Notes under the pieces: generated by a model | Database searches by the model: none | Told to the model about the DNA's origin: nothing | Seen by the model: only the letters and a program-made list of their open reading frames with translations | Shown: positions 2 through 4,719 of the stretch, in pieces | Layout: each line of letters starts with the position of its first letter | Numbering within the stretch: the first letter of the stretch is position 1 | Made by a program: the position numbers and the translations under genes | Source: Ignavibacteria bacterium | GTDB taxonomy: Bacteria > Bacteroidota > Ignavibacteria > Kapaibacteriales > UBA2268 | Direction: 5' to 3' | NCBI GenBank assembly: GCA_026416955.1 | Contig: JAOAEE010000043.1 | Coordinates: 1 to 45,696, forward strand | DNA: 45,696 bases

Positions 2-694
2 ACAGCTTCGAAGCAGTTTACCAACAGTTCCGACTTTAATTTCAATTCAAATTCTGAGCAAAAACTTTCGGTAGTAACCAAAAATCAACATAATGATAAA
101 AGCGAACAAAAATTTGACGATATTTCCACATTCAGAGTTGAGGCGAATAGAAAAACAGAACTTAAAAACGAAAGAATACCAACAAATGTTATCGACATAA
201 ATTCTCAAACAAAGAAAGAAGTAATTGAAAAAGACGAACTTACAAGTCAAAATTCCAAACCAACACCAGTGCGAGTTAGCGATATTCCAACTAAAGTAGC
301 TTCTTTCGTACAAAATGCAAAGGAAGTACCTATCAAAGCAGAAATTCTTCTCCATCCAAAATCGCTTGGTACAGTTGTTGTAGAAATGAATGTGATTAAC
401 GATAAAATTGAAATTATGTTTAAATCCGAACAAAAAGAAACACTACAAGCAATTGAAAGCCAAGTTGGTATTCTAAAAGATAAATTGCAAAATCTTGGTT
501 TCGAAAAACAAACATTTTCATTCCACCACCAATTAGAAGAAAGAGATAGCGGTTTCGGTGCTTTTTCGAATAGGCAAAACAAACAACAAGATGAAGCATT
601 AAAGCGAGAATTTCTACGCTCGTTCCTCAAGCATCAAATTTATAATGGAAATTTCACAAAAGATAGATGGGGGGAAAATGATTACCAGCATTAA
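2..694 (+). CDS. fliK: Flagellar hook-length control protein FliK, C-terminal part (5' truncated by window edge)
   Basis: The frame is open from base 2, so the start lies outside the window. The visible 230 residues begin with a low-complexity Asn/Ser/Lys/Gln-rich stretch, as in the disordered FliK linker. A C-terminal Flg_hook-type domain follows (about nt 320-600). Its core ILLHPKSLGTVVVEMNV and the amphipathic helix after it match the family pattern L-x-P-x-x-L-G-x-V-x-V. FliK measures hook length and switches the flagellar export apparatus from hook to filament substrates. The domain is followed by a basic tail. The 3' end overlaps flgD by 17 bp, which suggests translational coupling within a hook operon. 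The identification rests on the domain and on the flgD/flgE context. Confidence 0.85.
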   Translation, partial: TASKQFTNSSDFNFNSNSEQKLSVVTKNQHNDKSEQKFDDISTFRVEANRKTELKNERIPTNVIDINSQTKKEVIEKDELTSQNSKPTPVRVSDIPTKVASFVQNAKEVPIKAEILLHPKSLGTVVVEMNVINDKIEIMFKSEQKETLQAIESQVGILKDKLQNLGFEKQTFSFHHQLEERDSGFGAFSNRQNKQQDEALKREFLRSFLKHQIYNGNFTKDRWGENDYQH

Positions 695-1364
695 TTCGAT
701 TATGGGCAACCAAGCGAACAGCTCTACGAGCCAAACAAAGCAAAGCAACCTTGGAAAAGACGAGTTTCTAAAGTTGCTTCTAATTCAACTTAAATCACAA
801 AATCCTATGAAACCACTTGATAATATGGAATTCGCTACGCAACTTGCACAATTTTCTCAACTCGAACAACTTACAAATATTCGAAGCGTCCTTGAAAATC
901 AAAGTAAACTTTTTGAATCCCTTACGCAAGCGTTGCAAGGCTCTGCAATGAGTACTGTACTTGGCGAATTTGGAACAGTCTACACAAACAAAATGAACTA
1001 TACTGGCGATAACGAACCAACAATAGGATATTCGCTCGACTCGAACGCTCAAAGTGGCGAAGCAATTATCAAAGATTCAAATGGGCGCGAAATTCGTAGG
1101 ATACCACTTCCCTCTACTATGCTTTCTGCTGGTGAGCATCAGCTAAAGTGGGACGGAAAAGATAACGATGGAAACAAAGTTAATCCGGGTGAATTTACTA
1201 TTCAAATAATCGTATCGAATTATAATGGAAGTACATTTAACGCATCAACTTTCTTGACTGGGAAAATCGAAGCAATTCGCTTTAAATCCGAAGGAACAAT
1301 GCTTGTTATCGATGGAATTGAAGTTCCACTTAAAAACTTAATTTCTGTTAAATCAAAAGTTTAG
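678..1364 (+). CDS. flgD: Flagellar hook assembly scaffold protein FlgD
   Basis: A 228-residue protein of normal FlgD length. The ATG at 678 is preferred because it follows a run of six G bases with suitable spacing; an earlier in-frame codon at 645 would lie deeper inside fliK. The N-terminal region contains the FlgD signature (LGKDEFLKLLLIQLKSQNP and then the EFATQLAQFSQLEQL helix). The C-terminal half is a FlgD Ig-like/tudor module with LKWDGKDNDGN and a Pro-Gly-Glu-Phe strand. FlgD caps the growing hook and is needed to polymerise FlgE, which is encoded two genes downstream. The gap to the next gene is 7 bp, consistent with one transcript. Confidence 0.95.
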   Translation: MITSINSIMGNQANSSTSQTKQSNLGKDEFLKLLLIQLKSQNPMKPLDNMEFATQLAQFSQLEQLTNIRSVLENQSKLFESLTQALQGSAMSTVLGEFGTVYTNKMNYTGDNEPTIGYSLDSNAQSGEAIIKDSNGREIRRIPLPSTMLSAGEHQLKWDGKDNDGNKVNPGEFTIQIIVSNYNGSTFNASTFLTGKIEAIRFKSEGTMLVIDGIEVPLKNLISVKSKV

Positions 1365-1371
1365 GTTTAAT

Positions 1372-1755
1372 ATGGAAATCGATGGTGTTCGTCTTCCTTT
1401 TGTACCAATAGGTGGTGTAGAAACCTTAAATAGACCGACAAACCAAACTATTCCATCGAAGCGTAGTGGTTTCCAAGAAATTTTCGAAGCAGAAATTTCT
1501 AATCTAAAGTTCTCTGCCCACGCAAAATCCCGATTAACAAGCCGAGAAATTAATCTTTCTTTCGATGAAATTGAAAAGTTGGAAAAAGCTGTAAAGAGTG
1601 CCGAATCGAAAGGTGGCCGAGAAAGCCTTGTTATTTTCCCGGATAAATCTTTCTTGGTTTCCGTGCAAAACCGAACGATAATTACTGTTTTTTCTAACGA
1701 AAAACTTCAAGACAAAGTTATTACAAACATCGATAGTGTTGTATTTGGATATTAA
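1372..1755 (+). CDS. Flagellar operon protein, TIGR02530-like
   Basis: A 127-residue protein lying between flgD and flgE, where the small TIGR02530 flagellar operon family is usually found. The C-terminal two thirds carry the family pattern: FSAHAKSRLTSREINLS, a helix with EKLEKAVKSAESKGG, then short strands (LVIFPDKSFLVSVQNRTI and VFTNIDSVVF-like elements). It has no signal peptide or membrane segment. Its exact role is not known, although its position argues for hook assembly or regulation. It is translated 7 bp after flgD and is separated from flgE by an unusual 100-bp spacer. Confidence 0.8.
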   Translation: MEIDGVRLPFVPIGGVETLNRPTNQTIPSKRSGFQEIFEAEISNLKFSAHAKSRLTSREINLSFDEIEKLEKAVKSAESKGGRESLVIFPDKSFLVSVQNRTIITVFSNEKLQDKVITNIDSVVFGY

Positions 1756-1757
1756 TT

Positions 1758-1812
1758 GGGCTGGACCTTGCCAGATGGCGGGAGGCCCACCGACTCCGAA
1801 CGACTGAGGAGG
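1758..1812 (+). promoter_or_regulatory. GC-rich, potentially structured leader upstream of flgE
   Basis: This stretch is about 69% G+C in an AT-rich neighbourhood and lies between the stop of the TIGR02530-like gene and flgE. Complementary arms GGGC (1758-1761) and GCCC (1785-1788) enclose further pairable segments: CCT 1766-1768 with AGG 1783-1785 (partly exclusive with the outer arm) and GCC 1770-1772 with GGC 1777-1779. CTGG/CCAG (1761-1764/1771-1774) is an alternative pairing. The following part has two CGACT copies 10 nt apart and CTCC (1794-1797) able to pair with GGAG (1808-1811), inside an SD-like GAGGAGG that has no start codon after it. The real flgE SD lies 35 nt further on. A cis-acting RNA element or a dispersed repeat are both possible. 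Confidence 0.4.
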
Positions 1813-1855
1813 AAAATTCAAAAAAATCATTTATTAACAACAAATAGGAGGAAAT

Positions 1856-3178
1856 ATGGCAATATCAAGGGCATTATCAATCGGAACAAGTTCTCTTCGC
1901 AGCCATCAGCGCAGGTTCGACGTTATTGCAAATAACGTCGCAAATATTAACACAACAGGCTACAAAGCCTCTCGCGTTAATTTTGTCGAACAATTCAACC
2001 AAGTCATTAACCGCGGTAGAGCTTCGAATATTGTTGGAGGTCGAGGTGCAGGGGGTTATAATCCACTTCAATATGGACTAGGGGTACGTGTTGGTTCGAT
2101 ATCTCCCGACCTATCACAAGGTGTAATAGAAACTACTAATCGTCCACTTGATATGGCAATACAAGGCGACGGCTTCTTCGTTTACCAACTTAATGGTCGA
2201 CAATATTTCTCTCGTTCAGCACCAATAATTCGCGATAGCCAAGGCTATCTTGTTGACCCATCAACTGGTGCTGTACTCCAAGGATTCAATGTGATTCGCG
2301 ACGACAATGGTTTCATAATTTTTGATGCTAATGGAATTAGTTCTCTCAATAAAGCACTCAATAATCTCCAAATTCCAAGTAACACAATTACCCCGCCAAA
2401 ACAAACTCAAAACATAAAATTGAGTGGCAATCTTAATGCAAATGCTACAACTAATTCCACTGCTCTGACGAGTATTACAATCTACGACAATAATGGGACT
2501 GCCCACACTCTTTCTTTCACTTTTACTAAAACAGCTAATCCCAATGATTGGTCAGTATCTGCTACAATTGATGGAAACGCCTTAACACTTGGAGCAACAA
2601 CAATTACATTTAATGCAGACGGAACAATTAACACTCCAACTACTTTAACTATTACTGCTGCTAATTTAAATACTGCTCTTGGTCAAAACGTTTTCGATGC
2701 TACGACACCAAAGGATATTACCGTCGAACTTGCCCCCGCAAATAATTTATTGCAAGGTATTACTCAATTTTCCGGTGTAAACACTGTTACATTTCAATAC
2801 CAAGACGGTTACACTTTTGGCGAACTTTCGGACTTGAATGTCGATGACGAAGGTAAAATTTGGGGGTCATTTACAAATGGCAGAACCGAACTTTTAGGTC
2901 AAGTAGCACTTGCAAGGTTTGCCAATCCTTCTGCCCTTGTCCGCGAAGGGAATAATCTTTTCGCAGTTGCTCCCGATAGTGGGCTTCCAATTATTGGTAC
3001 AGCTGGCGAAATTTTTGCATCAAGTAGAATTTACTCCGGTGCACTTGAACAATCAAATGTCGACCTTGCAGAAGAATTTACTAATATGATAACAACCCAG
3101 CGTGCATACGAAGCAGCAGCAAGAACAATTACTATTACCGATGTAATGCTTGGCGAAACAAACAACTTGAAACGATAA
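1856..3178 (+). CDS. flgE: Flagellar hook protein FlgE
   Basis: A 440-residue hook protein. The ATG is preceded by a strong TAGGAGG ribosome-binding site. The N-terminus has the rod/hook signature (SSLRSHQRRFDVIANNVANI, then NTTGYKASRVNF). The DMAIQGDGFFV motif follows, and the C-terminal flagellar basal-body/hook domain ends with VDLAEEFTNMITTQRAYEAA. The middle, about residues 180-320, is Thr/Asn-rich and matches the variable surface domains of hook proteins. FlgE polymerises under FlgD into the curved hook joining rod and filament. It is the last gene of this cluster and is followed directly by an intrinsic terminator. Confidence 0.96.
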   Translation: MAISRALSIGTSSLRSHQRRFDVIANNVANINTTGYKASRVNFVEQFNQVINRGRASNIVGGRGAGGYNPLQYGLGVRVGSISPDLSQGVIETTNRPLDMAIQGDGFFVYQLNGRQYFSRSAPIIRDSQGYLVDPSTGAVLQGFNVIRDDNGFIIFDANGISSLNKALNNLQIPSNTITPPKQTQNIKLSGNLNANATTNSTALTSITIYDNNGTAHTLSFTFTKTANPNDWSVSATIDGNALTLGATTITFNADGTINTPTTLTITAANLNTALGQNVFDATTPKDITVELAPANNLLQGITQFSGVNTVTFQYQDGYTFGELSDLNVDDEGKIWGSFTNGRTELLGQVALARFANPSALVREGNNLFAVAPDSGLPIIGTAGEIFASSRIYSGALEQSNVDLAEEFTNMITTQRAYEAAARTITITDVMLGETNNLKR

Positions 3179-3674: not shown

Positions 3675-4028
3675 TTAGTAATTTTCTCCCTTTTTTTGAA
3701 GAGATTGCCGTTTTTCTTCTATCGAGAGCAACTTTTTTGTCAACGAAGAAGTAAGGTCGATTTTTCGTGCGTTCACATAATTGAAAAGGGCAATAAAAAC
3801 ATCGGCGGCTTCTTCGGCGAGTAAGTTCTTGTCGATATTTTTGCCTTTCCAAATTTTCTTTTCGGCATTGGCCAACTCACCGGCTTCCCCATTCAACTCC
3901 AAGCAAAAAAATTCGGGCGGTCGAGTAGTAAAAAACTTTTCTTGATATTCATCGAAACACTTTTGTATTTCTGGTATGCCTTCAATAATTGAATTGATAA
4001 GTTTCTGTAAAGTAGAATTGTTATCCAT
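3675..4028 (-). CDS. MazG-like nucleotide pyrophosphohydrolase
   Basis: A compact protein of 117 residues if translation starts at the ATG at 4028; a GTG at 4055 would add nine residues. It carries the MazG/all-alpha NTP pyrophosphatase metal-binding pattern: an E-x3-E helix in LELNGEAGELANAEKK and, further on, EEAADVFIALFNYVNA with the E-E-x-x-D acidic set. Such enzymes hydrolyse (d)NTPs to monophosphates and pyrophosphate, for house-cleaning of non-canonical nucleotides. The ATG overlaps the end of the upstream response regulator by 8 bp, which suggests coupled translation. The single-domain length resembles MazG-like or dUTPase-type members rather than full-length two-domain MazG; substrate cannot be told from sequence. 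Confidence 0.75.
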   Translation of the reverse strand: MDNNSTLQKLINSIIEGIPEIQKCFDEYQEKFFTTRPPEFFCLELNGEAGELANAEKKIWKGKNIDKNLLAEEAADVFIALFNYVNARKIDLTSSLTKKLLSIEEKRQSLQKKGENY

Positions 4029-4719
4029 TTGAAACACTATTTTCGTCGTATTCACGGATACGGTAACCTACCCCACGAATGCTTTGGATTAGCTGAGGAG
4101 CGTTTGGGTCGCTTTCTATCTTCTCCCGTAATCGCTTGATATATACATCAATAATGTTCGATTCTGGGTCGAAAGAATGTTTCCACACGTGTTGAAGAAT
4201 ACTACTTCTGCTAATTATTCGGTTTTTATTTCTCATCAGATATTCCAGAAGGGCATATTCTTTTGTAGTAAGTTCAATTTCTTTGCCGCCACGATAAGCA
4301 AAATGCGTAACAGTGTCTAAAATCAAATCGCCACATTGCAACTTAGTTGTTTTCTCGGTGCTCGACCTACGCAAAATTGACCGAAGTCGGGCAGCAAGTT
4401 CCTCGAAACTAAATGGTTTGGGCAAATAATCATCAGCCCCAAGGTCTAATCCCATAACTCTGTCTTCGGTTGCACCGCGTGCGGTGAGCATCATTATTGG
4501 AACGGAAATTCCAGCATTACGCAATTCCCGAAGTATAGTAAATCCATCCTTGCCGGGAAGCATAACATCGAGCAATATTGCATCGTAATGGTTATTCATT
4601 GCCAACTCGAGACCCTTGTTGCCATCGTTTGCAACTTCGACTATATATTTCTCCTCCTCTAATCCGTGTTTGATAAAATTAGCAAGTTTCTTCTCGTCTT
4701 CGACAACAAGAATTCGCAT
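4021..4719 (-). CDS. OmpR/PhoB-family response regulator
   Basis: A 232-residue two-domain regulator. The receiver domain has the acidic pair E7/D8, phospho-acceptor D51 in LLDVMLPGKDG, T79 and K101 in DYLPKPF. The C-terminal winged-helix domain includes ELTTKEYALLEYLMRN, the VDVYIKRLREKI-type recognition helix and the terminal IRGVGYRI hairpin. The ATG at 4719 is preferred over an in-frame TTG four codons upstream because the family normally begins with MRILVVED. The sequence resembles CusR/ArlR-type regulators. No histidine kinase lies next to it; the next gene downstream is the overlapping MazG-like gene. It is probably a DNA-binding transcription factor whose kinase is encoded elsewhere. 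Confidence 0.92.
   Translation of the reverse strand: MRILVVEDEKKLANFIKHGLEEEKYIVEVANDGNKGLELAMNNHYDAILLDVMLPGKDGFTILRELRNAGISVPIMMLTARGATEDRVMGLDLGADDYLPKPFSFEELAARLRSILRRSSTEKTTKLQCGDLILDTVTHFAYRGGKEIELTTKEYALLEYLMRNKNRIISRSSILQHVWKHSFDPESNIIDVYIKRLREKIESDPNAPQLIQSIRGVGYRIREYDENSVSNG

Follow-up and report, generated by a model that had tools for sequence, protein, structure and literature searches.

Analysis of the window, by which we mean the whole 45.7-kb stretch of DNA presented above, placed a GC-rich island at positions 1758–1812, between the stop codon of the ORF at 1372–1755 (TAA, 1753–1755) and the flgE start codon (ATG, 1856). A gap of two bases separates this stop codon from the island start, and 33 nt lie between the island end and the flgE Shine-Dalgarno (SD) sequence, which is left uncovered by the RNA element described below. 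The protein encoded by the ORF, here called flg_new, met the cut-off of the TIGR02530 equivalog model (94.1 bits, cut-off 83.2), and Pfam identified fliK-like and flgD genes as its upstream neighbours. Downstream of flgE, the minus strand carries an ORF of 126 aa (3675–4055) with no Pfam match at E ≤ 0.001 and no NCBIfam match at E ≤ 0.01. The coordinates of the features are listed in Table 1.

Table 1. Genes and RNA features around the flg_new–flgE junction of the window
Feature	Position	Strand	Evidence
flgD, hook cap, upstream operon context	645..1364	+	Pfam
flg_new gene, TIGR02530/PF12611, 127 aa; candidate trans-acting partner	1372..1755	+	NCBIfam, Pfam
Whole RNA element, covariance model R1 match	1755..1819	+	66.1 bits
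Hairpin 1	1757..1789	+	R1 alignment, pair counts
Hairpin 2: CUCC 1794-1797 paired with GGAG 1808-1811	1794..1811	+	R1 alignment
flgE Shine-Dalgarno AGGAGG	1846..1851	+	sequence
flgE, hook protein, 440 aa, downstream gene	1856..3178	+	Pfam FlgE_D2, Flg_bbr_C, others

The G+C content of the island is 69.1%, against 36.4% for the whole window, and among the 45,641 segments of 55 nt compared along the stretch it was the only one to reach this value. No promoter or intrinsic terminator was found near the element on the plus strand, and with no such site there we rejected the reading of the island as either; two terminator-like sites and one promoter-like site on the minus strand occurred at a frequency near that expected by chance. 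A DNA search of the own genome returned one place at E ≤ 0.001, and the covariance model returned one match. We disregarded the other DNA matches (E 4.6e-4 and weaker), which were confined to short pieces or to the AT-rich SD stretch. This single copy led us to reject a dispersed repeat.

Structure and covariation of the island RNA

The flgE gene was found in 45 of 60 relatives of the source genome. DNA divergence was beyond the reach of BLAST, the island being well aligned in only two relatives, and reading the upstream regions of 30 flgE-bearing relatives revealed a shared pattern. Twenty-four elements were aligned (alignment A2) and then modelled as R1; the window's own element belonged to this training set, which bears on its score.

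The alignment defined two hairpins. In hairpin 1, the outer helix P1 (1757–1761 with 1785–1789) is followed by an internal loop in which UGGA (1762–1765) faces AG (1783–1784), and the inner helix P2 (1766–1768 and 1770–1772 with 1777–1782) is closed by the apical loop AGAU. The arms in the window are GGGC/GCCC (1758–1761/1785–1788), CC/GG (1766–1767/1781–1782), and GCC/GGC (1770–1772/1777–1779). In the consensus, the last pair of the outer helix is a covarying Y-R, the internal loop [UCA]GG[AC] faces mostly RR, the inner helix begins with C-G, and the apical loop is unconstrained in length, some copies carrying long inserts. The loop of hairpin 2 in the window (1798–1807) is GAACGACUGA; the loop columns of the multi-phylum alignment A6 give the consensus GA-NN-GA-NN-GA, so that the consensus hairpin is a variable helix closed by an N-GA-NN-GA-NN-GA-N loop.

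Folding energy gave an ambiguous picture. A 61-nt piece folded at -22.5 kcal/mol (z -2.11, with 3 of 200 shuffles equally good), whereas with the AT-rich leader added the z-score fell to -0.67 and 48 of 200 shuffles did equally well. Energy alone is therefore insufficient, and the structure has to be decided by comparative evidence. In A2, we counted 109 double-change cells against 33.4 ± 4.9 after shuffling, and 83.1% of cells were paired against 39–52% when the partner was slid. Alignment A5 (52 sequences) contained 284 double-change cells against 82.5 ± 8.9, with 88.7% of cells paired and a covariation score of 0.722 against 0.221 ± 0.013 for shuffled and at most 0.184 for slid partners, while A6 (57 sequences from several phyla) contained 280 against 83.9 ± 9.0, with 91.4% paired. 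Changes on both sides were seen in all 19 pairs for A2 and A5 and in 18 of 19 for A6. These counts need two qualifications. A2 was aligned by MAFFT without structure, the structure then being named on A2 itself, and A3–A6 were fitted to a covariance model, which biases their counts towards that model; in addition, kinship among the sequences inflates covariation counts.

Beyond the helices, the element carries letters that do not change. The GG of hairpin 1 is invariant in A6 (57/57 rows) and is followed by A in 52 of the 57, and the three GA of hairpin 2 are constant in all of the 49–52 A6 rows with letters there. Such invariance argues for recognition by something specific. High G+C is dispensable, the copy at L098 in a relative having 30%. 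L093, L095, L061, L092, and L046 carry long insertions, either within hairpin 1 or in the segment joining the two hairpins, indicating that the spacing of the two is not fixed. The congeners G001 and G002 (loci L033 and L034) retain an intact hairpin 1 with a decayed GA-NN-GA-NN-GA loop in hairpin 2, a natural loss of one module.

Several claims of the original prediction could be evaluated at this point. The contrast of about 69% G+C with a region of about one third G+C held at the values given above. It had proposed nested complementary arms, which held for GGGC/GCCC and GCC/GGC, whereas the alternative CTGG/CCAG lies outside the conserved structure and failed; its pairing of an SD-like GAGGAGG (1806–1812) with CTCC (1794–1797) held. 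The check that it suggested, a covariance model built on relatives, revealed compensatory changes in the helices.

Distribution of the element and its linkage to flg_new

R1 gave one match per genome in 36 of the 60 relatives, 34 of them no more than about 150 nt ahead of flgE. The two remaining matches were weak and lay elsewhere (G039 C4, 23.6 bits; G037, 19.5 bits), and were taken as chance. With five more elements recovered by direct search of the loci, the element was found just upstream of flgE in 39 of the 45 flgE-bearing relatives, 15 of the 39 being outside the training set; six had none. One relative without it (G032, L101) has several copies of a palindromic repeat of the GATGC-GAAAC-AGTTC-GCATGACAG type upstream of flgE, and its flgE protein match is split in two pieces. 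Within the own class, the element occurred in 36 of 294 genomes, 11 of them outside the own order; gene context is known for six of these 11 (L112, L114, and L116–L119), and L121–L125 were only aligned. A draw from the phylum gave 21 of 395 genomes, all of the own class. Searches over more than 40 genomes used stricter filters and lost weak matches, and alignments A4 and A5 omit duplicates and the chance hit at L037.

Model R2, whose training set came from the own class alone, was applied to 80 FlgE loci from many phyla. It matched upstream of flgE in Calditrichota (L169, L178, and L203), Latescibacterota (L195), Firmicutes (L157), and two unclassified bacteria (L171 and L184), and weak matches (E 0.05–0.15) lay at the right place in L143 (Bacillota), L139 (Chloroflexi), and L191 (Zixibacteriota). 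Chloroflexota leaders showed mostly hairpin 1 alone. Among the sources of A6, 56 of 64 were matched by R2, the eight missed being Chloroflexota loci (L148 and L260–L266); by eye, hairpin 1 was visible in L258 and L260–L265 and could not be made out in L266. R2 matched L259 clearly. The pan-phylum model R3 was built from A6, in which L258 is a weak row and the retained row of L171 at 4663 (9.4 bits) is probably a chance match. The element lies between flg_new and flgE in Ignavibacteria/Kapabacteria, Calditrichota, Latescibacterota, and Bacillota. These data show that two hairpins with invariant loop letters are maintained by compensatory mutation at the flg_new–flgE junction in many lineages, and that the element is older than the phylum. 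The island is almost certainly a structured cis-acting RNA element.

Occurrence of the element followed that of flg_new. In the own order, flg_new lay directly upstream in all 39 RNA-positive genomes (36 by pattern, 3 by reading) and in none of the six RNA-negative flgE genomes, for which only the upstream stretch was judged. Across phyla, 29 loci had the flg_new C-terminal signature, and a strict hairpin 1 was present in 23 of them, as against none of the 45 loci lacking the signature. This test covered 74 of the 80 FlgE loci (L131, L172, L193, L198, L201, and L202 were left out), its descriptor was written after examples had been seen, and shuffled upstream regions met it in 0–8 of 100 trials per locus. 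Eight of the 29 signature loci were checked by profile; all nine flg_new candidates scanned by NCBIfam matched, seven above the cut-off. When whole genomes were scanned for TIGR02530, all 12 in which the model or the descriptor had detected the element gave a match, none of 6 others did, and 14 well-known control genomes had no match.

The largest sample came from the phylum of the L157 genome, here called Bacillota, in which 182 of 249 genomes carry TIGR02530. R2 found the element after flg_new in all 30 top-scoring flg_new loci of this draw, within about 50 nt of the stop codon. R3 scored 169 of the 249 genomes as RNA-positive, all of them among the 182 with flg_new, and detected no RNA in the 67 flg_new-negative genomes, many of which may lack flagella. 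Of the 13 flg_new-positive genomes missed by R3, seven gained a match with laxer filters and six did not.

Relatedness inflates these raw counts, and a FlgE tree was used to obtain independent contrasts. A tree of 89 rows provided six on supported branches, of which 5.9 pointed in the same direction (mean of 200 pairings; median p 0.031, range 0.031–0.0625). The first tree, with 74 rows, had yielded only two. The larger tree drops 30 of those 74 rows, namely 24 distant flg_new-less loci and six closer ones (for five of these, the contig is that of a relative still in the tree), and both trees score L152, L163, and L164 as RNA-negative despite a hairpin 1 visible by eye. Furthermore, flg_new adjoins the flgE copy of the element, so their joint loss may be a single deletion.

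Copies away from flg_new bear on this point. R3 gave at least two matches in 75 of the 249 Bacillota genomes, and we sampled 20 copies from the best-scoring part of the matches, of which two follow flg_new and 18 do not. Seventeen of the 18 precede flgG (16 by NCBIfam, and L278 by reading), and the preceding ORF ends FlgF-like in 15 of the 18 by eye. The genomes with such copies were also all flg_new-positive. Early flagellar subunits include FlgE and FlgG (PMC10936197), and the presence of the element at hook and distal rod genes makes a trans-acting factor likelier than a mere 3' tail of flg_new; a pure 3'-UTR role for flg_new is unlikely because 17 of the 18 copies precede flgG instead. Every copy whose context was read precedes flgE or flgG except that at L271 (G663; 1789–1847 of the locus, minus strand), a third copy in its genome, which follows a FlgF-like ORF and precedes a gene for an LCP-family (LytR-CpsA-Psr) transferase. 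No second copy was found in the own group, where each of the 26 positive genomes among 40 had one match at E ≤ 1. FlgG proteins of L270 and L274 are 362 and 397 aa long, with an apparent insertion after about residue 200; most of the other FlgG proteins read have about 260 aa.

Function of the element and rival explanations

The flg_new proteins share a conserved block, FSxHAxxRLxxRxI, which is reminiscent of DUF4258/RelE-like proteins; DUF4258 itself matched six of the seven flg_new proteins scanned, in each case below its cut-off (best E 0.003). Two AlphaFold models were built, both from the same 27 proteins. The model of the window protein had a mean pLDDT of 72.7, that of L195 had blocks from 51 to 110 at a pLDDT of 90 or more, and both showed a helix-helix-three-strand core. 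In VIA-align, the top 11 rows for the window model were RelE/ParE/HigB-type toxins or RNases (Z 5.6–6.0), including Cami1, which we take to have a RelE-like domain, and the top 20 rows for the second model were of the RelE/ParE/HigB/colicin E5/RegB kind (Z 4.6–6.2); the RegB row was poor (Z 4.9 at rmsd 6.8). Type III pantothenate kinases followed at Z 5.5 and 4.5, respectively. Foldseek with either model and PDB sequence searches with flg_new returned nothing significant, and a Z near 6 may reflect no more than a common arrangement. An RNA-handling fold is therefore suggestive only: the fold is predicted by the model, and any catalysis or RNA cleavage would be by analogy alone. In addition, the short motif F-x-x-x-[LIVMF] occurs at one aligned column near residue 34 in 27 of 27 flg_new proteins, within an N-terminus modelled at low confidence.

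Our preferred reading, which the evidence favours by a modest margin, is that the element is a cis-acting leader controlling hook and rod mRNAs, bound most plausibly by flg_new; it rests on no transcript, binding, or phenotype data. Its parts differ in strength. Action on the downstream axial gene is inferred and highly probable, whereas the identity of flg_new as the ligand is an inference without binding data that we regard as even or slightly favoured. Under this reading, a dedicated protein would bind the leader and adjust how well the mRNAs for FlgE (hook) and FlgG (distal rod) are translated or how stable they are, flgE being the target throughout and flgG also in many Bacillota genomes. 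The best candidate would be flg_new, encoded immediately upstream and with a predicted RelE/ParE-like fold, which would bind the element and perhaps cut or shield it, the sign of the effect (repression, activation, or cutting) being undetermined. Hook and rod protein output would then track the amount of free flg_new.

The strongest rival, which remains possible, is that the leader is bound by a different protein (CsrA, an RNase, or a translational regulator yet to be identified), flg_new co-occurring as part of the same old flagellar operon type. In its favour, physical linkage confounds the co-occurrence at flgE, hairpin 1 carries the invariant GG, with A next in 52 of 57 A6 rows, and CsrA represses translation via GGA motifs, including that of flagellin mRNA (PMC4894983). 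However, the GGA at 1763–1765 lies in the internal loop of a covarying hairpin, so the apical-loop criterion for CsrA is not met (binding data are lacking), the invariants of hairpin 2 are GA-NN-GA-NN-GA and not GGA, and genomes with copies away from flg_new all retain that gene.

A second rival that cannot be dismissed is an mRNA processing or stability element, whose hairpins would mark or protect a 5' end and raise flgE above its operon neighbours. The intercistronic position soon after a stop codon and the absence of a promoter- or terminator-like site nearby on the plus strand are consistent with this, and hook protein is required in excess. Against it, generic stabilising hairpins need no invariant loop letters across phyla, and flgG is not required in comparable excess. 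This rival overlaps the preferred reading if flg_new is a nuclease.

Less likely is a targeting or export signal by which hook and rod mRNAs would be delivered to the export apparatus of the flagellum and translated near the gate. All context-read copies but L271 precede flgE or flgG, which are early export substrate genes; however, no receptor is known, and no element was seen at flgB, flgC, flgF, or flgD among the part of the genome-wide matches that was read.

A protein-free switch, an alternative fold in which the flgE SD region is paired with GGACCUC, the 5' arm of hairpin 1, and which a small ligand or temperature would open, is likewise improbable. Among 30 Bacillota loci (L228–L257), the SD reads GAGGUC in 21 of 24 with a GACCUC arm and in none of the six others, and the bases UC follow GAGG at 31 of 47 flgE starts, compared with 6 of 114 starts of other mechanical ORFs (alternative starts included). 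On the other hand, none of 15 flgG copies combines the GACCUC arm with the GAGGUC SD (L282 has such an SD with another arm), the window leader has no arm–SD match, and the pairing barely beats shuffled sequences (-10.46 against -10.21 kcal/mol, p 0.021) in loci that are related. Its absence at flgG copies and in the window indicates that the match is not a general device. We rejected an anti-SD switch as the general mechanism and retained it as a Bacillota-group feature, in which the GGACCUC arm could conceivably mask the flgE SD (often GGAGGUC) when hairpin 1 is open. Finally, a repeat, mobile element, or chance fold, for which the extreme local G+C might speak, is all but excluded by the single copy, the conserved locus, and the covariation.

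The functional options of the original prediction fared accordingly. A cis-regulatory RNA is strongly supported by its conserved place at flgE, the covariation seen in every helix, invariant letters, and multi-phylum occurrence, while the suggestion that it times hook synthesis is without data; a processing site is not excluded; a dispersed repeat failed, with one own-genome copy and, elsewhere, all copies read but L271 preceding flgE or flgG. The main idea held and reaches well beyond the window.

The preferred reading, control of hook and rod mRNAs through the leader, can be extended to a bolder and speculative one, which we consider no more than a possibility: a secretion-coupled RNA checkpoint in which flg_new is a RelE-fold RNA-binding regulator with an export-gate motif. 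With the rod/hook export gate shut, flg_new would be retained and would hold or cut the leaders of flgE and flgG; when the gate came to accept early substrates, flg_new would be exported and hook and rod synthesis released. Export of flg_new, which would make it a secretion sensor, is itself a tentative inference without export data. If true, the checkpoint would parallel FlgM at the post-transcriptional level and would be ancient enough for several phyla to share it. To our knowledge, flg_new does not occur in the best-studied model bacteria, which is perhaps why such a checkpoint would have been overlooked; how cells adjust rod and hook subunit synthesis to whether the export gate is open is known chiefly from Salmonella. 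More generally, a leader common to hook and distal rod genes across phyla points to an RNA-level layer of control and provides a test of function for TIGR02530, a widespread flagellar family of unknown function, and the covariance model, together with mutant design, makes the element and its partner directly testable.

Comparison with known systems

The candidates closest by name are termite-flg (RF01729) and flg-Rhizobiales (RF01736), structured RNAs likewise named for flagellar genes and listed for the termite hind gut and Rhizobiales only (PMC2864571). Neither matched the window at the gathering score or the surroundings of the element at E ≤ 10, and neither matched the loci of 20 relatives (gathering) or 18 Bacillota-group loci (E ≤ 1); the relationship to the termite-gut motif that the original prediction had raised was thus tested and not found. 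None of the 4227 families of Rfam 15 gave a gathering-score match over the element in the window, the 20 relatives' loci, or the 18 Bacillota-group loci, and a known Rfam family was rejected as its identity on this basis. The sole Rfam match around the element was STnc130 on the other strand (16 bits, cut-off 55), and the scan of relatives' loci returned two tRNAs. Such a motif was also not found in the literature searched on flagellar RNA motifs, flgE/flgG leaders, and TIGR02530, and the main texts of PMC11109978, PMC8632094, and PMC6429828 (supplements excluded) do not contain flagell-, flgE, flgD, hook, or motility. We therefore describe a multi-phylum RNA element absent from Rfam 15 and from the literature searched, and claim novelty within that scope only.

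CsrA-controlled flagellin mRNAs resemble the proposed system in that a flagellar axial protein is controlled post-transcriptionally through GGA (PMC4894983). The element differs in its internal-loop GGA, its second hairpin with other invariants, its association with hook and rod genes, and its tie to flg_new. Autogenous ribosomal-protein leaders are small protein-binding leaders beside the gene of their binder; here, in contrast, the regulated genes encode export substrates of a secretion system, and the partner is unproven. The RelE/ParE/colicin E5/RegB group is known by the fold name BECR, and RegB prefers GGAG. The flg_new models align first to RelE/ParE/HigB toxins, the colicin E5 RNase, and T4 RegB (Z 4.6–6.2), but without a significant Foldseek or sequence match.

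Two flagellar proteins bear on the bolder reading. The gate recognition motif of Salmonella FlgD is FLTLL at residues 36–40 (PMC8983047), and the F-x-x-x-hydrophobic motif of flg_new lies at a near position, although export is not shown. FlgM is an exported anti-sigma factor, and in the bolder reading flg_new would likewise leave the cell and thereby signal competence for export; unlike FlgM, flg_new would act on the RNA leaders of early genes and not on a sigma factor.
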